Source of the DNA: Xiphydria camelus
Taxonomy: Eukaryota > Arthropoda > Insecta > Hymenoptera > Xiphydriidae
Length of the DNA stretch: 64,000 nucleotides
Direction: 5' to 3'
NCBI GenBank assembly: GCA_963678675.1
Contig: OY783191.1
Location: 20,649,111-20,713,110, forward strand
The position numbers and the translations under genes were made by a program. Below the pieces are notes generated by a model. The model did no database searches, was not told the origin of the DNA, and saw only the letters and a program-made list of their open reading frames with translations. This document shows positions 3,957 through 56,617 of this stretch, in pieces. Positions within the stretch are counted from its first letter, which is position 1. The number at the start of each line of letters is the position of its first letter.

Positions 3957-4191
3957 TTTTTTTTTTTTTTTGAAGAACGGGCGAGGAGGGGAATCTTCGA
4001 CAAGACACCCAAGATGTTAGTAGGGTAGTGTCGGATTTCTACCGACTAAACCTCTCCTCGTGGTTACCAACCTCGGGGGTTATAAACCAAGTAGAAGAAG
4101 AAGAAGGGGGGGGGGGGTAAGACGATAAAGCAAAAGGCCCTGCAGCTAGCAGGGGCCGTTGGCGCGGATGGCGCGAGTACAAAGTTAGGCG

Positions 4192-7139
4192 TTAATTAAT
4201 AAGTATGCAGGGTCTGCGGACTTTGTCCGTGGGTCTGCTGGCGTAATTGCTGAGCGCTTTGATAGAGGGGTTGTCGTGGGTCTTGACGGAGTTGCGAAGG
4301 TTGCCTGCGTATTTTATTGCGGCTGTGTCGAGTGACGGGAGACCGGTTTCTTGGAGCAGCTGTTTGTTCCTAATGAACCATGGGGAGTTTAGGGAACCTC
4401 TGAGGAGTCTCATGTAGGTACCCTGGAGTCTGGCTAGCTTCCTAGGGTCGGCCGAGCCCCAGACGGGAATGGCATAAGAGCAAATGCTCCTAATCTACGC
4501 GTTGAAGGCCCTGACCTTGGAGACCTGAGATATTTTCCTATTATTGAAAAATGGTTTCAGAGAGACGTAAGCGCCGTTGGCTTTGCCACGCACGGATGAG
4601 ATCTGCTTACCCCAGTTTAATTTCCTGTCAAAAATTACCCCTAAATATTTGACAGAGTTACTCCAGGGAATGAGATGATTGTTAACTGAAAGGGGATCTG
4701 GAGGGATATTGCGGCGAGAAGAAAATTGCCTCCGACTTGGCTTCGTTGAGGGAGAAGCCCCACATATGATACCAATCGAGGAGAGAGGGTAAGAATCTAT
4801 TGACAACTGAGGAGCAAAACTTCTTGGTTTTGGAGGAATATAACAGTGCGACGTCATCCGCGTATTGTGCGGTTATGATTTTGTCGTGGGTGGGGATGTC
4901 GTGACAGAAAAGATTGAATAGAGCGGGCGAGAGTTTAGAACCTTACGGAACTCCCGCCGTGATGGGTTGCGCAGCGGAGAAGCTATTCCCCGAGCGAACT
5001 TTGAAGGATCTGTTTGTGAGAAAGGACCGAATCAGATCGATTAGGTAGTGAGGGAGCTTCAGCTCATTTAATTTGAAGATTAAACCGTCGTGCCAGACTC
5101 TGTCGAAGGCTTGCTTGGCGTCGAGCAGGAGCATAGAGGTGTGACGGCTCTTGTTGAGGTTGTCCGCGAGGAGTTCAGCTACACGGAGGAGTTGATGTCA
5201 AGTACCGTGCCGAGGACGGAAGCCATGCTGGAAATTCGGGAGGATGTTGGAAGCGGAGCAAAATCTGTTCAGGCGGGTTAGTATAATACTTTCCGCAACT
5301 TTACTTAGGGCGGGGAGCAGACTAATTGGCCTGTAGCTGGGGCCCCTTTCTCTAACTCACTCGCAAAGTTGCGTATACGCATCTTAGCCAATAGACCAAT
5401 CAGGATCAAGTATTCCGTTGTGGTGGGGGTCCTGATTGGTCCTGGAGCCCTTTAGCCCTGGAGGCTTGGTTGAGAGGCTTGCCCTGTTTTGGGAGACAGA
5501 TAATTGTAGCTGCCTTCCAAGCAGGGGGGAAGTATTGTAACCGCAACATAGCGTTGATGATGTTGCAGATCGCGACGATGAGGATGTGTGGGAGAATTTT
5601 GAGGACCCCATTGGAGATTGAGTCGTATCCTGGAGCTTTGTTTTTCTTTAAGGATTGAATGGTTATAGCGATTTCGCTAGGGGAGGTGTGAGGGAAGGAG
5701 GTCATCGAGACTGATATTTTGGACGGCTTCTGTTACCATGGTGTGAAAAAAGGCGAATTTGTCGCGAATAGGAAACGGGGAACATTGTTCCTTGAGGGAT
5801 TCTGCGAAGATATTTGCCTTGTCGCTGTCTAGCGCGTAAGCGATACCGTCTTTCAGGAGAGGAGGGGAATAAGGCTATCTGTTCCTGAGGGACTTGATAA
5901 CTTTCCAGCAACTTATGGGGCTTGACTCGGCTATGTGGATATATATTTATTGAAATTTTCGTTTCGAAAAGACTGGAGGGCGGCCCTAAGGTCGCGTTTT
6001 ATAGAGTTTAGATGGGGGCAGAGGGCGGTGTTGCCTGTGCATTGCAGGTGCCTGCGAATTCTTCTCTTTTTGGCTATAAGAGCTCTAATTTCCGGTGGGA
6101 GACGGGTGTCGAGCGCGCGGAGGGAAATAGGGCTGCTTGCTAGGTCCATTTTGGGTTTGATTTCATGGGTAAGCGAGTCAACGGCGGAGTCAATGTCCTG
6201 AGGGGTCCGAATGATTGGACATTTGTAGGACTTGGTATCGAGATGAAAGCGGAGTGCCATCCAGTTTATTTTTGTCTTAGTCAGGGTTTCGGAGGCGAGG
6301 TTACCTAGGATTTCGAGAAGGACTGGGTTGTGGTCGGAATTTAGTGCTGGGATAGTCCAAGGGTCTTTGATAAAAGTTAAGTTCTTGGAAATGAAAATGT
6401 CTAGAATATCGGGGTTGTTAGAACCTGGGAAGTGTGTGTAATCCGAAGGTGCGTCGACGGAGAAATTATGCGCACTGAGGAGATTGAATAAGGTCTTGCC
6501 TTTCGAGTTTTTAGCGCGGCAACCCCAAGAGTCATGTTTGGCATTGAAGTCCCCTGCCAGGATCGTAGAAGTATTTTGGTCAAGAAGGGCCGGTATTTCG
6601 GATAGGTTATTAGCGTCCGGGGGGGAGTAACAAGCTATGATTTTCAGTTGATTGTTATTGTGGATGACCTCAATGCCGCAAGTCTCCAGAGAGGGAGTAG
6701 GGGTACTAATGGCCTTGTGTCGGATGGAGTTTCGTACGATTGTGGCTACTGCCCCATGCTTGGAGTTAGGGCGGTCACGTCTGTAGACGGAGAAATTGGG
6801 GATAAAGATCTTGTGAAGAGGTTGTAGGTGCGTTTCCATAATACAGGCCACATCAATGGAGGATTCATCGAGGAGCTGTGTTAAGAGGAGAGTTCTGTGG
6901 TTATTGGCTGCTAGAATACCGTTGGCATTCCAGTTAAGGATGGTGAGGTGATCTTTATTGGAGTTGGACGTTAGGTTGTTGGGAGTGCCCAGGTGAATTT
7001 GGTGGCGAAGTCTCAAAAAAGCTCTAAAAGAGTCTGGTTTTGGAACGGGACGGCGGGGGCCGGGGGTTGTGGAGCGGGTTGGAGCGGGTTGGAGCGGGGC
7101 ATGGGGGGAGGAGGGGCCCCAAGCGACCTGTGCGAACAA
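4192..7139 (-). pseudogene. Non-LTR ORF2 (endonuclease + reverse transcriptase), copy A, broken
   Basis: ORF2 would nick target DNA and reverse-transcribe the element RNA. The endonuclease part (5931-7139, 402 codons) shows LNWNANG near residue 69, METHL near 101, AGDFNAKH near 195 and SDHNPV near 268, the order typical of APE-like endonucleases. A frameshift near 5930 ends that frame; the linker continues in another frame, then KKNKAPGYDSI marks the RT start. The RT is split by a small MITE (about 5346-5456). Downstream LLLDAKQAFDRVWHDG and a YADDVALLYSS catalytic box are readable at about 5134 and 4865, and the C-terminus ends RRPCILIN at 4192. With several frameshifts and an insertion it is not functional. 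Confidence 0.88.
5346..5456. mobile_element. Small MITE inside RT of copy A
   Basis: Copy C has an uninterrupted RT here, so about 110 bp were inserted. The insert contains CGTATACGCATCTTAGC and GACCAATCAGGA blocks that recur at 15317-15505 and 32065-32195, usually flanked by CTCGCAAAG and a GAGAAAG/CTTTCTC end. No coding capacity. Confidence 0.65.
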
Positions 7140-7487: not shown

Positions 7488-7776
7488 GTTAGGTTAGGTT
7501 CTGGCTTTGCGTCAGCTGCGTAGAGTTGTGTTGCGAATGCGTGGCGTTGGACGGTTGGACACACTAACTGCTAACTTCAAGTAATAATCGCAGTGATATC
7601 ATCTCGAGAGGGAGAGTGTGCCACTTTTATTTCACGCACTGTGAGGTTATTTCACGCACTGCGCAGGTTATTTCACGCACTGCGCAACCTTTCACACATT
7701 GGTGCGTAAAACGTCATTTCACATGCCTCGAGGACGCCCGTAAAACCAAGTATTTGGCACTGAGTGACAAAAATAC
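7488..7776 (+). repeat. Repeat R, right flank (copy 1)
   Basis: The first 200 bp are the reverse complement of 49083-49260. The stretch begins with two TTAGG-like units and contains three spaced copies of TTATTTCACGCACTG at about 7625-7685, against two in the other copy. The end is the insertion site of the Sola-like element. No gene was recognised. Confidence 0.6.
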
Positions 7777-34774: not shown

Positions 34775-35674
34775 ACAAGGAAACCGTCCGAGGCGGCCGC
34801 TTCCGATCTTGATGAAACTTCGTAAATTTAAAGTTTATCGAAAAATAAGAGACACGTATTTTTTTATAGCTGCCCAATTTTAGTTTAAAGGGGTCAAATA
34901 GACCCCTGAACTTTCACCCCCTTCGAGCTATCTCCGAAACGAAGCTAAATAGATGAAAACTTTAAATGTACGTTGTTTGGTTTTTTTAGTGTAATAAAAT
35001 CCCCTAAACAGATTTTGAATAAACGCATTATTTTTCAAAAAAAAAAAATTTATTTATCTGATTTTTCGAAATTTCGGTTTGGTCATATGGACAAAAATGT
35101 AGGAAATTTTATTACAAATTCAACCATGTATAACAAAATATATTTCCCTCCTACAGTTTTGCAAATTTTTAACTTTTATGTCTGAGCGGGCTACCAATGG
35201 TAGTGACGGGATATAGGTCGGGGGTTATTACTTCTATGTATTTTAAAGCCACTTTTCTTTTATTTATTAAAGTTCAACTTTTTATGGCTCATAATTATGA
35301 CAATAATGGTATTCCGTAAAAAAAGGTTTCATACAAAGTTGTTTCTTACACCAAACACACGTAATAACGGCAATATCGCCACATATGTGGCATCGTGGTT
35401 CCGAGTCCTGTGCATAATAAAATTCTACAGGATATTTAAATTCAGGAGGTCTCCTGAATACATATCCACTCTTGAACCACGAATATTTAATAAAATTAGT
35501 AAACCGTGGCGAAGAAAACTGATTATGAGTAAGGGATTGAAGTTTAAAAATATTATCTCTCGAATGTGCGTGTGTGAAGGTTAATGTCGTAATTGAAAAG
35601 AGTTACAATATCTGAAAACCTCCTTACAAAATTCTTCCACATTCGAAAGCCGTATACGTCTAGCGGAATATTAT
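34775..35674 (-). pseudogene. Inverted copy of the pogo-like transposase 3' end
   Basis: Read on the minus strand from 35674 it begins CCGCTAGACGTATACGG and follows the plus copy at 43051-43420: GFRMWKNFV, WFKSGYVFRRPPEF, CHICGDIAVITC and YHYCHNYEP before the stop near 35287, then the same 3' UTR. Small indels separate the copies. It either forms a long terminal repeat of the element or is a fold-back duplication made during transposition. Confidence 0.78.
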
Positions 35675-36462: not shown

Positions 36463-37613
36463 GATGATGGCCCCTTTTTGGGAAGTCGGACCTCCCACCC
36501 ACTCCAGTCTGTTTCGCTCTTGTGAGGCGACTTCATTATATATAAGGAAGCGAAAGAGAAAGCTTTTTAGTCTGAATATTCAGTTTCTATGGTGCACAGC
36601 AGTTCATATTATTATTATGGCAATTATAAATTCGATCAATGTGTTAACTTTATTGGTGGCCGTTTTCAATGTACCAAATGGAAGAGAAACTCCAATGAAT
36701 AGTGCAGAAGTGCAATTGAAAGATTTATTACAAAATATTATTATACGTAGCATGGAGGATTCATCATTTCGAGTCGAACATGAAAATAAATTAGAATTTG
36801 AAGAGATTCAATCGAGGATAGTGAAATGCACGCTGTTAATACTGACTGGCTGGAATCGGATGTCGAGTATGTTCCTGACGTAGAAACCTGTATACCTGCA
36901 GAACCATTTCCCTGTACACCCGATGAAGAAGCGGTTAGCTTTGAATATAAACAAAGTGCCGTAGATTACTGGAACAGTGGAAAGAAAAGACGTCGAACCG
37001 TAGCAGCAGTTCAACATCAGTTTAGAAAAGTCAAATCTGATAGACAATTACGAAAATGGGCTGCACAAGTAGGAGAGGGGGGTACTCAAAATGATAAATT
37101 AATACGCATAGCGCAATATACTTTTGATAAATTTGTAGAAGCTAGTAGATTGAAAATAATAGTACATGATGTAGACCTTAACCCTCTGACGCTAAACTCT
37201 TAGCAATCCCTGTCGCGTGAGCTGGAGAAAGGGAACAGCCAATCGCGCGCGGTCGCTTTATGTGTTAGTGACTGACGTCACGGAAATGGCCCCCCACTCT
37301 CATTCAGCCAGGCTCGTAATTAGGGGCCTGCTCACTCATACCGTGCTCACTCGCACTCACGGGATTTCGCGCGACGGCACGGCAATGAAATAGGGGCCCC
37401 ATACATGGTACGATTCGTTGCCTCGATCCGTCGTTTCAAACTGATTGAAACGACGAATCGATAGTGTATGTCAACATAGTTAATGATTTACTTACAATTA
37501 GTCGAAGACTACTTCATTGTCACTATTAAAAAAATGGCTTATTTAAATCACACCGCAGCACAGTGGGACCAAATCCCGAAAAGCTGGCCAAAATTCGAAA
37601 ACGTGTATAATCG

Positions 37614-38009
37614 AGGTGAAATTGAGTACTCGGGTGTTTTTGGGGTCGCTGATTACGAATCCAAAGTCAAAATATCGAAAAACAATATGGCGGATCCAAT
37701 ATGGTGGAAAGGTTCCTCAAAAATTGATCGAATCTGGGTGAAATTGAGTACTTGGGGGTTTTTGGGGTCGCTGATTACGAATCCAAAGTCAAAATATCTG
37801 GGTGAAATTGAGTACTTGGGGGTTTTTGGGGTCGCTGATTACGAATCCAAAGTCAAAATATCGAAAAACAATATGGCGGATCCAATATGGTGGAAAGGTT
37901 CCTCAAAAATTGATCGAATCTGGGTGAAATTGAGTACTTGGGGGTTTTTGGGGTCGCTGATTACGAATCCAGTCAACATTTTTAAAAACAATATGGCGGA
38001 TCCAATAGA
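37614..38009 (+). repeat. Subterminal tandem repeat of the Transib
   Basis: Four copies of GGGGTCGCTGATTACGAATCC begin at about 37644, 37767, 37829 and 37952. Long units (about 122 bp, including CAATATGGCGGATCCAATA) alternate with a shortened one. A plus-strand open frame through here is a repeat artefact. Confidence 0.8.
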
Positions 38010-38160
38010 TATAGTGTGTTTCAAAATGTTTGTGCTTAAAGGCAAACTAATGTTACACATCTTAAATTTGAAGTATAATATACAGGGTGGGATATAAAGT
38101 TCCGAATAGTAGTATTATTCTAAAACTACAAATTTTGGAAATTGGCTTTTCTGTATAGAG

Positions 38161-38196
38161 GAGAGTGGGACCGATTTCACAATTACTGGCCAAAAT
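38161..38196 (+). promoter_or_regulatory. Third RSS-like end motif inside the Transib
   Basis: GAGAGTGGGACCGAT is followed by GGCCAAAAT with the same 23-bp spacing as the real ends: heptamer-like GAGAGTG 38161-38167, spacer 38168-38190, CAAAAT from 38191. The heptamer has lost its leading CAC. It may be a decayed former left end, with 37559 added by a later event. Confidence 0.6.
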
Positions 38197-38476
38197 TTTG
38201 TAACTTTCAGAATCAAACGATAATATAGTCCCAATTAATAGAAAAATTCTTTTAAAAAATTGTGAACAACATGTAATAGGTTTAGGGGGTGCAAATATGG
38301 AGAAATTTAATTGAATTATAATAAAAGAGCATATATATGGTTAACATATAATGTAATTACTTTATTTATAAACTAATTTAAATAGAACATTTTCAAAATT
38401 AATCTTGTAAATTATTTCAAAAAAGTATCACATAACAAGTGGCGGTACAATGAACGAAAATCCCTCCCAAAAAATG

Positions 38477-41413
38477 TTAGAACTCGTCGTCATCGGAGGT
38501 TTCTGTTTCGGTTGCACTTTCTAAAGATGATGCTGCGGGGAAACTTTCTGTGGTAATGTCACAGTAAACGTCTGGCTCCAAAAGTAGTTCTAGTACAGCA
38601 GGATCCATGGGGCCACTTAGTTTTCCAGGTAATTTTCTTAAACTGCTTATGTATGGATCGGATGATACTAAGAGACAGTGAAGAAGGTCTTCATTTGTGG
38701 CTTCTCTGGATACTTTTCTAGTATGGCCTCTTCTATACGCTTTCAAGTCTTTATTCCTACATTCTTGAGCCTCTTCCGAAAATTGGCCTATAGGCAGGAC
38801 AGCACACTGTATAATGTCAGCACCATGCACCAGAATTTTGTGAACGCTGGCTGGCATATAATACCAGTCATATTCCCACACGTATATTCTGGCCGTATCT
38901 ATAGCATATGTTTTAAATTTGTCTACATGTATATTGTGCCCTGATGATAATGCTTGCAAAATTGTCCTTGCTCTTTTTAGCAACTCTAAGTTCAACCCGG
39001 TAATTTCCGATGACTTTTCTGCCGAATTGAAAAATCGTCGGGCAGTGTTGCCATCATTCGATGTACCGCTTCCCCCAGGTCTCACTTTGTCAATCAGAAG
39101 TCCCATTTCCTCCCGAAATCTTTTTTGGATGAGTTCTTTCTTTTTTTGTAGTAAAGACATATTTTCTCCGCGAGCTTGCCACTTTTTAAAATCTAGCCTA
39201 TAGGCAATGTGCAAAAAGCACTCTACAAACCGAATCCATGCATGGAGTGTAGAGAGCCCGAATTTAAAGGTTTCTGGATCAGCTGATTTCTTCAGAGCCT
39301 CGTCAATATCATTCATTTGCTTCGGAGATGCCTTACAAACGTAGCAGATTTGGGCAGAATGTGTCGAAGTGGCTGCGTTACAGATCTTTCCATCGACCAT
39401 TGTTAGAGACAGAATATGGGTGATAGAAAATTCTTTGTCTTCGATCTTTGTTTTGAACGGAATTAGGTTTTGAATTTGTTGTTCAACACGATGAATTTCT
39501 TCCTGAGACAATGCAGTTGTTTCCTTTTTAAATTGAAATTTAATGGGTCTGCAATAACGTACTGACGATGGCCGGGGATTTTGCCAAATGATTAATTTAG
39601 TGCCATCAATCTTATTAGCATATAGCTGTAAAGGCACAAGGGATGTCATAAAAATATCTGTGTCCGTGCTTCCGTCAGTCAATCTTTGTTTATATTCACT
39701 ATGTCCAGTGGACCCGTCACACCCCCACTTTGATATTAATGTAAGATTAGATGATATTTCTTCTACAGAAATCGTACGCAGAACTAAATCTTGTGTTAAA
39801 AGAATTCTTTGCAGAGTCAAATCAAGAAGAGCTTGCAAATTGACTTCAGCACTTAATTCAGAAACTATCACATCTTCTTTTGAAGGATAGCACAGCTCTT
39901 TTGCTTTTTCTATTTTCTTGTAGCTAGGATATATGTCTGCATTTTTTTCTTTATTCAATAAACGTATATTTGCGTATTGCCTCTTCGTTAGTTTTGTGTC
40001 CACAATCAACGACACGGCTTCATCAGGAGTGACTTTTATGGGGTCTACTTTAGAACCCATCCACGCCTTTCTAATCTTTGAAGCTGTAGTAGGAGAAGAT
40101 TCCACAACTTCTTGTACCAATTTCGCAGCGTCGTGCTTTCCTTCCGATCTTAATAGCGAACCCACTGCATAGGAAAGCTTTCCGGGGCTTGAAGCCATGA
40201 TTAGTTCCTTTGTTTTCCTTCGCTTGCTGCGTTCACTACTTCCTTGAAAATGAAGTGAAGGCCGACCGACCCCTGATGACGTAGCTGCACAGGGCGTGGA
40301 GGTTTGCTCAAAAAGTTCCGTGGTTTTGAATAGTAAAACGTCACCTTTAAAACGAAAGGATTAATTGTATAATTTTATCCTTATTAATTTAAGTAAATAT
40401 AGTGGAATCAATCTAAATTTCGTACAAAAAGTTGGGCTTCAGGGCATGAAAATTACACCAATCGATAGCTGGAGGTCCCAATATTGACATATCAAAATGT
40501 ATCATCTGCCAATTCCCGGGGAAATTTATAATTAATTAAAGACTATCGAAGTTTTGGCCCTAAGCCACTTTAATCATTCATTTCTCCTATATTATTAACT
40601 CGAAAAAAAAATGAAGCTACTAATTTGTAGCGGGGAAAATTTACTATAACATTGATGCGAGAACCTACATGACAAAATGCACGGTTAATTTATAATAATT
40701 TTTTGAAAGTCCCGGTGTACGAAAAAAAAATAAGCTACGCATGGCGCGTATTACGTGGTCACCATGGGAACAGCTGATTGCTTGGCGAAACATGCTCAGA
40801 AATTACATTCGTACACCGGGACTTTCAAAAAATTATTACAAATTAACTGTACATTTTGTTATGTAGGTTCTCTCATCAATTTTATAGTACATTTTCCCCG
40901 CTACAAATTAGTAGCTTCATTTTTTTGGATTGAGTAAATAATATAGGAGAAATGAATGATTAAAGTGGCTTAGGGCCAAAACTTCGATAGTTTTTAATTA
41001 GTTATAAATTTTCCCGGGAATTGACAGATGATACATTTTGATATGTTAATATTGAGACCTCCAGCTATCGATTGGTCTAATTTTCATGCCCTGAAGCCCA
41101 ACTTCTTGTACACCATATATCCAATGTCTAGATTGATTCCACTAATATATATAATAGAGAGAAAGGATTAATTGTATAATTTTATCCTTATTAATTTAAG
41201 TAAATACATACCTTCCAACCAAGCTTTGTTGTCTTTTAGAAACCGGTCTTTAGTACGATTACACCTGGTCCATTTTGAAACAAGTTGATTACAAAATCTG
41301 CTCAAATTCAGAATTATCTCTTGCCTATGTTCTTCAACAATTTCATCTCCGAAAGAATTTATTATCGTGTTCTCAAATTCTTTCGCTTTTTGTTTATAAG
41401 AAATACTAGACAT
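38477..41413 (-). CDS. Transib (RAG1-related) transposase, two exons, 689 codons
   Basis: Exon 1 is 41413-41212 (67 codons, ending KAWLE), donor GTATGT, acceptor TTTTAAAG, exon 2 40344-38477. The frame holds across the splice and to the stop, with no break seen. In the 689-residue product, Asp 277 (WGCDGSTGHSEYK), Asp 385 (LTMVDGKICN) and Glu 591 (IGQFSEEAQECRNK) fit the RAG1 triad. Cys 401/404 (CYVC) and His 569/574 (HKILVH) fit the RAG1 zinc site, and SNDGNTARRFF resembles the RAG1 NGNFAR region. A basic stretch SKRRKTK near residue 106 may be a nuclear signal. The protein would bind the CACAGTG ends and cut by hairpin formation, as known for the family. The intron holds a foldback. Activity is not proven. 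Confidence 0.9.
40354..41206. repeat. Foldback in the Transib intron with 46-bp direct repeats
   Basis: A 46-bp sequence (GAAAGGATTAATTG... AAGTAAATA) occurs at 40354-40399 and 41161-41206. Between them is a palindrome, 40402-41142, starting GTGGAATCAATCTAAA and ending in the mirror, with a centre near 40770. With one direct copy and no foldback the intron would be about 60 nt. The foldback itself is non-coding. Confidence 0.85.
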
Positions 41414-43884
41414 CAGTTGCCAAGCATTAAATAATTCGAGGCATGTATAAGAGACTCTTCCATCTGAAAGATGAAAACACCATACGATATGGACATGTTA
41501 AATTAGAGAGAGTGAGGGTTGATTTTTTAAAGATTATTTTGACGTTTTTTTATTACGAAAAAGTGAGTTACAGTGATTAGGTGTAGGTTTGTAGATACGC
41601 GTTAATAATTATACAGAAACAATGAGGTATTACAAAGTAAATCCAAATTTGAATAAAATCTGAAGTGACATGCTCAAGTAAAAAAATATCTACCACAAAA
41701 AGGGGCAAAAACGGGCAGAAAAGTATTGTCATTAGATACAACAAATCTTTAGCTACATTTTAGTTAAAAGAACAAAGCTGGAACACGCTGGAAATGTTAC
41801 TTTAACTCTAGTTGAAATTAAAATTTAACTTCTTCGAAACTAATTTTTCATGTTAACTTTAATGTGTGATTTCTACTCAATTAAATGGCTAAATTGCTTA
41901 TATTTATATATCAAAATGAAGTACTTACGCTGAATAATATCCTCCATATCGCACTTTATCATTCACTTTAACACAAAGTCTGTAAAAACTGTTTGAATCG
42001 GACACCATTCGGCTTACGATTTGACGCTAGAAGAACGCTTCGTACAACTTGTCACTTCAATTGCATGAAAGAGACTATTATTGAGGGTAAACCTGTACAT
42101 TACTGATTACATCGTTGCATTCGGATATTCAGCTACGCATTATGACTCATTCTGAAGGAATTTTAATGACTTTAAAATTTGCTATTTTGGCCGCCGAGTA
42201 ACGGATCGGTCCCACTGTGCGCAGGTAACTTTTAACGTTTCGTCGGTGCCTAGCGACCATACGGGTTGCGACGGCCCTGTCACTCTCTCCCCACTACACT
42301 AAGGTCTCACGCTTGACTCTGCCCCGCGCAGTGGTGGGGAATCGAGCTTTGCCGTCAGAGGGTTAAACGATGGGCTTTACAAGCAAAAGAAGTAGAGATT
42401 CTTCCAAACTTTAAAGCAAGTGAAAAATGGTTGAGGTCATTCAAGAGAGCATATCGAATTGTCTCTCGAAAGATCACAAAGTTTGTAACGAGAAAAAACG
42501 TTCAGGGTGAGGAAAGTTTGAAACTACGAAGCCAAGCCTTCGTAGAACAAGTGAAGCCACTCATTACACAATATGGACCAGAAAATGTATTTAACTCTGA
42601 TCACACACAGAGTGGATTTAATTTAGAAATACATTCTGGCCGAACTTTGGCTACATCGGGGCAAAAAAAAATTGAAGCTGTGGTACAATCAATATCTTCT
42701 ACAACCCATAGCTATACTATACAACCCACCATATCTGCTGATGGAAAACTACTGTCGCCTCTTTATGTGGTATTAAAAGAGGCTAGTGGGCAATTGGGAG
42801 AAAGAGTGCAACAAACCGTGTTTAGGCCGCCAAATGTATACTACATGGCTTCGAAATCTGGGAAATTTACAACCGATCTCATGAAAACATGGCTGCAAGA
42901 AGTTTACTTCCCTCACACTGGACCTACAAGCGTCTTACTGCTGGACTCTTGGAGTGGACAATGTGAGCGAAGTGTTCGAGAAGCTACACCAGAAGATAAG
43001 ACAATAATATTAATGACGATTCCAGAAGGCACCGCCGGACTAATTCAACCGCTAGACGTATACGGCTTTCGAATGTGGAAGAATTTTGTAAGGTTTTCAG
43101 ATATTGTAACTCTTTTCAATTACGACATTAATCTTCATTCGAGAGATAATATTTTAATACTTCAATCCCTTACTCATAATCAGTTTTCTTCGCCACGGTT
43201 TACTAACTTTATTAAATATTCGTGGTTCAAGAGTGGATATGTATTCAGGAGACCTCCTGAATTTAAACATCCTGTAGAATTTTGTTATGCACAGGACTCG
43301 GAACCACGATGCCACATATGTGGCGATATTGCCGTTATTACGTGTGCTTGGTGTAAGAAACAACTTTGTATGAAACATTTTTTTACGGAATACCATTATT
43401 GTCATAATTATGAGCCATAAACAGTTGAACTTTAATAAATAAAAGAAAAGTGGCATTAAAATACATAGAAGTAATAACCCCCGACCTATCCCGTCACTAC
43501 CATTGGTAGCCCGCTCAGATATAAAAGTTAAAAATTTGCAAAACTGTAGGAGGGGAATATATTTTGTCATACATGGTTGAATTTGTAATAAAATTTCCTA
43601 CATTTTTGTCCATATGACCAAACCGAAATTTCGAAAAATCAGATAAAAATTTTTTTTTGAATAATAATGCGTTTTTTCAAAATCTGTTTAGGGGATTTTA
43701 TTACATTAAAAAAACCAAACAAAACGTACATTGAAAGTTTTCATCTATCTAGTTTGGGGTCCATTTGACCCCTTTAAACTAAAAGTGGGCAGCTATAAAA
43801 AAATACGTGTCTTATTTTTCGATAAACTTTAAATTTACGAAGTTTCATCAAGATCAGAAGCGGCCGCCTCGGACGGTTTCCTTG

Positions 43885-44030
43885 TAAGGTGCTAATAGTT
43901 AATGCCCCACCCTGCATATTGCGGTGATACTGATTGCTAAGGATCGACAATCAGAATTCCGACCATCGTTTGTACCGGATATACTGGTGTGTTTAACCCT
44001 TTCAGTCACGATTTATGAAAACTTAAGGAA
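43885..44030. repeat. Short LTR-like tail and TTAA end
   Basis: 43920-43985 (GCGGTGATACTGATTGC, GAATTCCGACCATCG) is related to the end of the LTR-like element at 46250-46309 and to 56480-56535 and 58005-58050. TTAACCCTTTCAGTCACG at 43994 looks like another TTAA-type end with no partner found. Confidence 0.45.
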
Positions 44031-51085: not shown

Positions 51086-51348
51086 TTTTTTTTTTTTTTG
51101 AAGAACGGGCGAGGAGGGGAATCTTCGAAAAGACACCCAAGATGTTGTTAGGGTAGAGTGTCGGATTTTTACCGACTAAACCCCTCCTCGTGGTTACCAA
51201 CCCGGGGGTTATGAACCAAGTAGAAGATGAAGTATGGGGGTGGAAGACATAGAAACATAATAAAGGGGCCTTGCCGCTAGATGGGGCCGCAGGCCCGAAA
51301 GACACGTGTGCGAGTTTAGAGGGAACATTTTAGGTTAAGTGACGAAGA

Positions 51349-54075
51349 CTAATTGATAAGAATACAGGGACGGCGGTATTTATCCGTGGGTTTGCACGAG
51401 AAATTGTTAAGTGCTTTAATAGAGGGGATGTCGTGGGTCTTGACGGAATTACGAAGGTTACCAGCATATTTCAATGCGGCTGAATCGAGTGACGGGAGAC
51501 CGGTTTCGCGGAGCAGCTGGACGTTCCTAATGAACCAGGGGGAGTGTAGGGAGCCTCTAAGGAGTCTCATGTAAGTTCCGTAAAGTTTGGTAAGTTTACT
51601 ACGTTCGGCCGAACCCCAGACGGGAATGGCATACGAGCAAATGCTCCTAATCAATGCGTTGAAGGCCCTGACCTTGGTGACCTGAGAGATATTCCGGTTA
51701 TTGAAAAATGGTTTCAGGGAGACGAATGCCCCGTTGGCTTTGCCGCGCACGGAGGAAATCTGCTTGACCCAGTTTAATTTCCTGTCAAAAATTACCCCTA
51801 AATATTTGACAGAGTTACTCCAAGGGATTAGATGATTGTTTACTGAGAGACGATCTGGGGGGATATTACGGCGAGAGAAGAAGATAGCCTCTGACTTGGC
51901 TTCGTTGAGGGAGAAACCCCACATATGATACCAATCGAATAGTTCGGGTAAGAATTTGTTAACAACTGAGGAGCAGAATTTCTTGGTTTTCGAGGAATAT
52001 AACAAAGCGACGTCATCTGCGTATTGCGCAGTAATGATTTTGTCGTGGGTGGGGATGTCGTGACAGTATAGATTGAATAGGGTAGGCGAGAGTTTAGAAC
52101 CTTGCGGAACTCCAGCCGTGATAGGCTGCGGATCAGAGAAGCTTTTCCCCGAACGAACTCTAAAAGATCTGTCTGTGAGAAAGGACCGTATCAGACCGAT
52201 CAGGTAGTGAGGGAGTTTTAGCTCATTTAATTTGTAGATTAAACCATCGTGCCAGACTCTGTCGAAGGCTTGCTTGGCATCGAGCAGGAGCATAGAGGTG
52301 TGGCGAGACTTGTTTAGGTTGTCCGCGATGAGTTCAACAACGCGGAGGAGTTGGTGGCAGGTACTATGCCGGGGACGGAAACCACGCTGGAAGTCGGGGA
52401 GGATGCTGGCCTCGGAGCAGAATCTGTTAAGGCGGGTTAGTATGATACTTTCTGCAACTTTGCTGAGGGCAGGGAGCAGGCTAATTGGCCTGTAGCTGGA
52501 GGCTTCGTTGAGAGGCTTACCCTGTTTAGGAAGACAGATGATTGTTGCTGTCTTCCACGCGGGGAGGAAATATTGCAACCGCATCATAGCGTTGATGATG
52601 TTACAGATGGCGACGATAAGGATGTGCGGGAGAATTTTGAGGACCTTATTGGGGATGGAGTCATAACCTGGAGCTTTATTTTTCTTTAAGGATTGAATGG
52701 TTAACGCGATTTCGCAAGGAGAGGTGTGAGGGAAGGAGAAGTCATCGAGGCTGATATCTTGGACGGATGCCGTGATAGTGGAATGAAAAAAGGCGAATTT
52801 GTCGCGGATAGGAAACGGGGAACATTGTTCCCTAAGGGATTTAGCGAAGATATTAGCTTTGTCGCTGTCTACCGGGTAGGCGATTCCGTCTTTTAGGAGA
52901 GGAGGGGAATAAGGCTGTCTGTTCCTGAGGGACTTTATAACTATCCAGCAACTTCTGGGGTTTGCTTCGGCTATAGAAATATAATTATTGAATTTTTCGT
53001 TCCGAAAAGACTGGAGGGCGGCCCTAAAAGGTCGCGTTTTATAGAATTTAGATGGGGGCGGAGGGCGGGGTTGCGTGTGCGTTGCAGGTGTCTACGAATT
53101 CTTCTCTTTTTAGCTATAAGAGCCCTAATCTCGGGAGGAAGACGGGTGTCGACGGCGCGGAGAGAAATCGGGATGCTAGCTAGATCCATTTTGGATTTAA
53201 TTTCTTGGGTGAGCGAAACAACGGCGGAGTCAATGTCCTGAATGGTCCGTAAGATAGGACATTTGTAGGACGTGGTTTCAAGATGAAAGCGGAGTGCCAA
53301 CCAATTGATTTTTATCTTAGTCGGAGATTCGGAGGAGAGATTACCTGGGATTTCCAGAAGGACTGGGTTGTGGTCGGAATTAAGAGGTGGGACAGTCCAA
53401 GGGTCTTTGATTAAAGTTAAGTTCTTGGAGATGAAAATGTCTAGGATATCCGGATTTTTAGAACCTGAGAAGTGGGTGTAATCCGAAGGAGCGTCAAAGG
53501 AGAAATTATGAGCATTAAGGAGATTGAATAATGTCTTGCCTTTCGAGTTTTTAGCGCGGCAACCCCAGGAGTCATGCTTGGCATTGAAGTCCCCTGCCAG
53601 GATCGTAGGAGTATTTTGGTCAAGAAGGGCCGTGATTTCGGATAGGTTGTTAGCGTTCGGGGGGGGGGGGGGGGGGAGTAACAAGCTATGATTTTCAGGG
53701 GATTGTTATTATGGATGACCTCGATGCCGCAAGTCTCCAGAGAGGAGGTAGGGGTACTAATGGCCTTGTGGCGGATGGAGTTTCGTACGATAGTAGCTAC
53801 TCCTCCATGCTTGGAGTTAGGACGGTCACATCTATAGACGGAGAAATTGGGGATGTAGAGCTTTTGAAGAGGTTGTAGGTGCGTTTCCGTAATGCAGGCC
53901 ACATCAATGGAGGATTCGTCGAGGAGCTGCGTTAAGAGGAGAGTTCTATGTTTCTTGGCCGATAGAATACCGTTGGCGTTCCAGTTAAGAATGGTGAGGT
54001 GATCTTTACTGGAGTTGGACGTTAGGTTGTTGGGAGTGCCCAGGTGAATTTGGTGGCGAAGTCACGAAAAAGCTC
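51349..54075 (-). pseudogene. ORF2 endonuclease-reverse transcriptase, copy C, two frameshifts
   Basis: Endonuclease motifs LNWNANG, ITETHL, AGDFNAKH and SDHNPV are present. The frame is lost at an 18-G run (53659-53676; copy A has 7) and again near 53028 where AA is added. The RT is then open to the end: KKNKAPGYDSI, YRPISLLPA, LLLDAKQAFDRV, TAGVPQGSKLSP, YADDVALLY and the ending RRPCILIN. The RT domain itself looks sound, so the damage is late. Confidence 0.9.
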
Positions 54076-54262
54076 TACAAGGGGACCCTTCGAAAGTCGG
54101 AGCACCGATTGTAATGAATTTTTTTTTTATAAATAAAGGGAAGTCCCCTGAGTAACGCTCATACTTTACTTTTGTCCAATGCGCCTTTGTTTATTTAAAA
54201 AAAGAAATTGTTTTGATGCGTAATGTGTGTACTGTAATGTAATACTCGGTATCCAAGATAAC

Positions 54263-55200: not shown

Positions 55201-56617
55201 CTTGGATACCGAGTATTACATTACAGTACACACTTTACGCGTCAAAACAATTTCTTTTTTTTAAATAAACAAAGGCGCATTGGACAAAAGTAAAGTATGA
55301 GCGTTACTCAGGGGACTTCCCTTTATTTATAAAAAAAAATTCATTACAATCGGTGCTCCGACTTTCGAAGGGTCCCCTTGTAAGAGAGTCTGGTTTTAGT
55401 GCGGGACGGCTGGGGCCGGGGGATATTGAGCGAGTTGGCGCGGGGCAGGGAAGGAGGAGGGGCCACTGGACGGCTATTCTGTAATTCCGGGGAGAGTGAG
55501 CGTACCTGGGAAGTGACCGTTCCACGGGTGAGACCTTCCCTCGCCCAGCTCATGCCCGACCGTTGAAACGTGTACCTAAACAGCTATTCTCTAAGTGAGG
55601 AGCGGGCGATGTTCACTGAAAAAGCAAGGAGAGTGAAGGAATCACTATTCTGTAACTGCGGAAGCGCTCCCATCGCACGAAAACGGGTGAACTTACTTCT
55701 ACTGGTCAAGACCGTGAGAAGCAGCCTGCTCCCCGGGAGAACGGCGACTCTAGCCTACCTACTTCTGCGCCAGCGTACCGCAGTTTACAGTTTGTTAATT
55801 TGCGTGTTCCAACAAACGATACACAGTGGTCCGGCGATCTAAGCAAACGCGATCATGAGTATATTAATGAGTTACATAACTGATTTGTGCGATGTAAATT
55901 TATGTCTTAGTTATAAAGATATACTGTTAAAATAAAAGACCAAAAATTAACCATATATTTATTCTACTATGATAACGTAAATGGAACATAATAAAAAAAT
56001 ATATTAAACTGAAACATTCATTATTAAATGATATAAAATAATTCAAAAACATACTTATATATAAGAACTTTTTCCAGAGGTGGTAATAGGAAAAGTAGTT
56101 GGAAAAAATAATTTAACAAAAAGCACATTTCCCTAATGCTTACAATAAAAGTCAAAAGCAGCTTAATAATTAAAAAAGATATAGGTATTATACTGGTACC
56201 TAGTATTATTCCAAAATATGCATCCTTGAAAACGTACACTTATAAAACGTACCTGAAACCAAGCAAATTGTTTTAAATAGAGAAAATTGATTTCGTAACA
56301 ATAAGACTGCGAAACCGTAAAAATTCAATACATTAAAATAGGACAAGAATGGCATGTAAAATGTTATATAATAATCAAGGGCATGCTTCAAACTATAACT
56401 TAAACCAAAAAATGTACGTATCTGAACTTAGCATCATAGTAAGCAGTTATGAATATTATGGACTTTTGACCTATTTCAGAACCACTGTGCGATGGTCGGA
56501 ATTCTGATTAACGATCCTTAGTAATTAGTATCACTGCGATATACAGGGTGTAACAGAGTAAGTGTTACAACGTGAAACTGTAGATTCCTTATGAAAGAAG
56601 AAAAATCTTTCTCGCCA

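Follow-up and report, generated by a model that had tools for sequence, protein, structure and literature searches.

A Transib transposon of Xiphydria camelus that probably lost its own left tip and remained mobile with the end of another Transib family

Can a transposon that has lost one of its own tips remain mobile? This question is raised by a Transib element lying in a 64,000-nucleotide stretch of DNA (hereafter the window) from the hymenopteran Xiphydria camelus (assembly GCA_963678675.1, contig OY783191.1, positions 20,649,111 to 20,713,110). RAG1, the enzyme that cuts antibody genes, arose from a Transib-related transposon, and the signals of V(D)J recombination have a CACAGTG heptamer and a 12- or 23-bp spacer. 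An earlier reading of the letters of the window (the original prediction) had described a recently active Transib with ends very close to the recombination signal sequence with the 23-bp spacer (23-RSS); it did not report a decayed inner end at position 38161 or a foreign left end. Our sequence comparisons indicate that the element is very probably a Transib that lost its own tip and remained mobile with the end of another Transib family, referred to here as B.

As judged from similarity, the left 600 bp of the element are the end of family B. Indeed, 20 distinct loci of B type matched the first 50 bases with 92-98% identity (from 22 rows, two of them being one locus and one being half of a chimera) and bases 450-602 were 81-89% identical at seven loci over 133-143 bp, whereas similarity of the core to B was confined to coding patches, 95-249 bp in length and 67-73% identical. 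Within the element, at 38161, stands a third end built like the other two (GAGAGTGGGACCGATTTCACAATTACTGGCCAAAAT), its heptamer being spoiled (GAGAGTG) and its spacing retained. When the junction was used as a 301-bp query, 40 places were scored among 54 candidates. The junction was spanned at five of the 40, the Transib side alone was matched at three, and the B side alone at 30, all of which stop at query positions 96-100, i.e., window positions 38155-38159. At the joint, B sequence ends with TATAG and is followed by five bases, AGGAG, after which the old end continues as AGTGGG, the CAC being gone. Two Transib-side places start at the old tip, and at C14:23368700 this tip is intact (CACAGTGGGACCGATTTCAC) next to an unrelated flank. 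The fused element was found at four places, the window included, with intact tips and flanking duplications of its own. Hence, the chimera has moved as a unit, and in joint-spanning copies with intact tips, moves after the fusion used the B-type left tip together with the element's own right tip.

Seven further loci of the element's own Transib family were then compared with the window, giving eight copies. Those on C10, C14 and C28 shared 99.5-99.7% identity with the window copy in the left core and 99.0-99.1% in the right core, and both of their tips are intact, with flanks reading CAACC/CAACC, GGACG/GGACA and CGCTG/CGCTG, respectively (two perfect duplications and one of 4/5); the C28 copy carries an insert close to its right end. 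The remaining copies are older (96-98% identity in soundly aligned stretches; L013 and L015 align badly in places) and are truncated or have damaged tips. The recent activity proposed in the original prediction is supported by these three copies, 99.0-99.7% identical to the window at the sequence level and bearing their own duplications, and a genome search did find further CACAGTG-ended copies with 5-bp duplications. The C10 and C14 copies have a common stop at codon 88, which suggests movement in trans. No relatives were found in scans of the genome-contig and viral-contig collections. An older chimera copy, at G000 C1:13118489-13128086, is apparently interrupted at the fusion point by an inserted element that has inverted ends and measures about 6.7 kb.

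Several observations weigh against continued mobility with a captured end. An open frame was found in one of the eight copies, that of the window. The intact old tip at C14:23368700 belongs to a fragment of about 175 bp (91% identity) without a visible right end, and the old tip on C17 has lost one heptamer base. Neither a nested nor an adjacent intermediate came to light. Two of the 40 scored junction places, 6.7 kb apart on C1, have inner flanks that are by eye reverse complements of each other; from their sequence they seem to be the halves of a sixth fused copy split by an insert, a copy which is itself reconstructed. Finally, since B elements carry their own Transib transposase, a B-type enzyme rather than that of the window may use the B end.

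By reference to its family, the RAG1-like transposase would read a CACAGTG-led tip and an A-rich block about 22-23 bp inward, cut at the tips and insert with 5-bp duplications. The old tip may have been destroyed when a transposition next to a B element was nested or failed, or when transposase-cut DNA was joined, a cut at the old tip leading to the fusion; the B end, in which both blocks recur with unchanged spacing, would have been accepted as a substitute, and a single transposase would use both ends. Alternatively, two Transib copies could have been joined through ordinary recombination or a deletion with no cut by a transposase involved; this route to the chimera overlaps with the above explanation and is rather unlikely. 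Ectopic recombination or conversion is invoked for chimeric Galileo elements in the available part of one study (PMC3573991), but the partners share only a few bases at the breakpoint here, and it lies a few bases from the old tip, the cutting site of this type of enzyme.

The copies could also have been moved solely in trans by the transposase of another family, that of the window being dead or irrelevant. This would be compatible with a captured end; B-type elements that carry transposase genes occur in abundance, and the stop common to two copies means that a copy lacking a full frame probably moved in trans. Nevertheless, the window copy is fully open with the tested active-site residues present, and we regard this possibility as unlikely. 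It is very improbable that the element is an ordinary Transib with subterminal repeats, in which the inner GAGAGTG would be one more repeat bound by the transposase, the left 600 bp having been native from the outset. The inner block does keep the exact spacing, as a binding site might, and the same joint recurs at five loci; such a structure is at odds with the left 600 bp being 81-98% identical to B when the cores reach 67-73% in patches, with 30 B places losing similarity at the same base, and with the inner block forming the outer boundary at two loci with other flanks, one of them with an intact CACAGTG. Capture of a B end by a Transib that had lost its tip is the reading retained here.

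The ends themselves resemble RSSs in part. Tips starting with CAC are present, CACAGTG being matched 7/7 at 37559-37565 on the plus strand and at 42219-42213 on the minus strand, and GGCCAAAAT stands at an equal distance inside both. These heptamers had been predicted, as had the flanking CGCAG duplication, which is found on both sides (Table 1), and a CAAAAT placed 23 bp inside each end, which does begin after exactly 23 bases at both. When the 6.7-kb region was shuffled 300 times by dinucleotides, an exact 5-bp duplication with an inverted 12-bp pair arose twice in total, and a chance inverted repeat was rejected as the source of the tips on this result; the real region contains two such inverted pairs, the Transib ends and a foldback insert. 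Compared with the nonamer ACAAAAACC, the left end reached at best 6/9, at spacer 22 and equally at spacer 10, and the right end 5/9, alike at spacers 21 to 24. At a spacer of exactly 23, the scores were 4/9 on the left and 5/9 on the right. In random sequence scored over three registers, 6/9 was reached by 4% and 5/9 by 15%. An asymmetric 12/23 pair was not observed, the A-rich block being equidistant at both ends and the spacer-12 scores being 3/9 and 1/9. The ends are thus less close to a 23-RSS than proposed, the match lying in the heptamer, with nonamer scores of 6/9 and 5/9 and symmetric spacing. Symmetric 20-22 bp spacers are reported for published Transibs, and 12/23-type ends for others, in the accessible text of PMC8355894. 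As RSS-like ends of Transibs are already published, the headline of the original prediction is what is expected for a Transib.

Among three ends tied to the window family, the tip (12-15 bp) and GGCCAAAAT agree at a fixed spacing and the stretch between them differs. Agreement confined to these two parts fits recognition through two spaced blocks, as in RSSs. It is possible, and we put it forward tentatively, that transposases of the RAG1 family recognise ends as a loose, detachable module of two blocks, a CACAGTG-led tip and an A-rich block at fixed spacing, such that an element can survive the loss of a tip by using that of another family with a transposase about half identical to its own.

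The transposase was assigned from its frame, fold and active site. Two GT-AG bordered introns and an upstream exon (41947-41929) give an open frame of 712 codons. The frame of 689 codons originally proposed is indeed unbroken and starts at Met24, the second methionine of the longer form; as six of six aligned relatives extend upstream of Met24, the 712-codon form is the better gene model, and the 689-codon start was rejected as the full frame on the upstream exon and these relatives. The protein matched HzTransib (E 3e-136; 458 bits to 6pqn), which was also the top hit in the fold lists, the core being 47% identical over 474 aligned residues. The element is hence supported as a Transib with a RAG1-core fold, as the original prediction had held. 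The window protein carries the complete DDE triad and the CxxC / HxxxxH zinc residues, the triad being placed through the HzTransib alignment with positions counted by hand. The HzTransib residues D126, D225 and E436, given as its DDE in the part of PMC6941560 available, fall on D300, D408 and E618 of the window transposase. In 30 aligned proteins, both cysteines, both histidines and E533 (exon-3 numbering) are invariant, while D215 and D323 (same numbering) are Asp in 29/30 and 24/30, respectively, six of the 30 having Asn at D323. These six Transib relatives, which have long frames yet carry Asn in place of the second catalytic Asp (D708 of RAG1), may be dead copies or something else.

Alignment to RAG1 was partial. 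The RAG1 profile matches clearly at E962 and the zinc histidines only; both Asp and the zinc cysteines match weakly (5-12 bits). With the Pfam model of RAG1, the score was 15.9 bits, under the cut-off of 25. The suggested alignment of the triad and zinc residues thus held throughout the triad against HzTransib and, against RAG1, at the zinc histidines and E962. The RAG1 numbers of the zinc cysteines, the zinc histidines and E662 are those we presume. A GRP motif precedes three predicted helices in the transposase and resembles the GGRPR motif that belongs to the RAG1 nonamer-binding domain in the available part of PMC6941560; with 3 bits against RAG1 over that stretch, this is a lead. No Kelch or PHD match, as for a RAG2-like partner, was obtained in a Pfam scan of seven other open reading frames of at least 80 amino acids.

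Transib ends were also surveyed genome-wide. The pattern CACAGTGGGACC-15-GGCCAAAA, with up to two mismatches, occurred at 141 + 127 = 268 places, and its backward control at 0 + 1. The end encountered most often, CACAGTGGGACGAAATCCCGAAAAGCTGGCCAAAA, belongs to the high-copy family B, whose elements encode their own Transib transposase, 37-54% identical to that of the window depending on the segment and broken in the two copies read (L057 and L058). Among the matches listed, 23 inward-facing tip pairs lay less than 10.5 kb apart, copies of the window family being excluded. Twenty of them (1.8-9.8 kb) were retrieved with their flanks unseen beforehand, one of 8 kb and two over 10 kb being left out, and their 5-bp duplications were perfect at 17, 4/5 at one and 3/5 at two. 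With the four chimera copies added, 20/24 were perfect, with the consensus CGNCG. This is in line with the Transib target site given in the accessible part of PMC4735498, and the GC-rich 5-bp site, CGCAG at the window element, is as expected for a Transib. Target sites differ among Transibs, since CCANTGG is reported for Drosophila hopper and transib2 (PMC3276498, available text).

The element shares terminal inverted repeats and 5-bp target-site duplications with HzTransib of Helicoverpa zea, as described in the available part of PMC1852546, and a related transposase core; it differs from HzTransib (3518 bp) by its 4661 bp, its three exons and a left end from another family. It is like the vertebrate 23-RSS and RAG1 in its heptamer and RAG1-core fold, and unlike them in its nonamer, its symmetric ends and its sub-threshold Pfam match. 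Its structure recalls the Galileo chimeras (P superfamily) of Drosophila mojavensis, in which the ends of two subfamilies stand on one element; the 12 chimeric copies described in the available text lack matching duplications (PMC3573991), whereas the window chimera has 5-bp duplications of its own at several places. In the accessible portions of the literature searched, no report of captured Transib ends was found, the Galileo chimeras being the nearest case. What is already known is Transib itself and its RSS-like ends; what is added is a captured and later mobilised end. An element whose two ends come from different families and which has moved is a natural experiment. It suggests that elements of this kind may survive tip loss through end exchange, hints at short end signals common to such enzymes and names a minimal candidate code for RAG1-type end recognition. 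If true, use of foreign ends in trans would be normal for Transibs, a model for RSSs cut by a RAG encoded elsewhere.

Table 1. Coordinates of the putatively chimeric Transib and its parts within the window
Feature	Positions	Strand	Basis
Whole chimeric Transib element, 4661 bp	37559..42219		
Left target-site duplication CGCAG	37554..37558		
Right target-site duplication CGCAG	42220..42224		
Left tip: CACAGTGGGACC, then GGCCAAAAT at 37586-37594 (CAAAAT 37589-37594)	37559..37594	+	
Right tip, own right end of the element's Transib family: CACAGTGGGACC...GGCCAAAAT	42184..42219	-	
Left terminal segment, probable family-B origin	37559..38159	+	similarity to B loci
Subterminal tandem repeat, 186-bp period, within the B-type segment	37615..37971	+	
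Probable remnant of the former left tip: GAGAGTGGGACC...GGCCAAAAT, spacing retained, CAC lost	38161..38196	+	
Transposase exon 3 including stop; D300, E365, D408, C424, C427, H592, H597, E618 (712-aa numbering)	38477..40344	-	
Foldback insert within intron 2; separate repeat family	40400..41144		
Transposase exon 2	41212..41463	-	
Transposase exon 1, start codon (MEDIIQ)	41929..41947	-	

The foldback family occurs at no fewer than (at least) 32 other genome places with 88-95% identity. A 46-bp direct duplication surrounds the insert here and is present in six of the seven other Transib copies; its origin as a target duplication made by the foldback insert was rejected, an older duplication of intron sequence with a separate insertion fitting better in our judgement.

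Adjoining the Transib, the C-terminal part of a Tc5-like transposase (DDE_1, Transp_Tc5_C) lies at 42317-43420 (+), and 43049-43885 has an inverted match at 34775-35666 (94-96%). An outward-facing CACAGTG pair at 56489/58054 was rejected as a Transib copy, as we read it to be part of an inverted repeat of greater length. A Jockey-like non-LTR (long terminal repeat) retrotransposon is present twice, at 51086-54081 and 3958-7030, the copies being 84-88% alike; the closest database relative of its reverse transcriptase is 67% identical. For a reverse transcriptase of the window, the closest named relative, from Trichomalopsis sarcophagae, is 63% identical. A further repeat starting with CACAGTGCGTGAAATAAAAGTGGCACACTC has two copies in the window, at 7643 (-) and 49125 (+).
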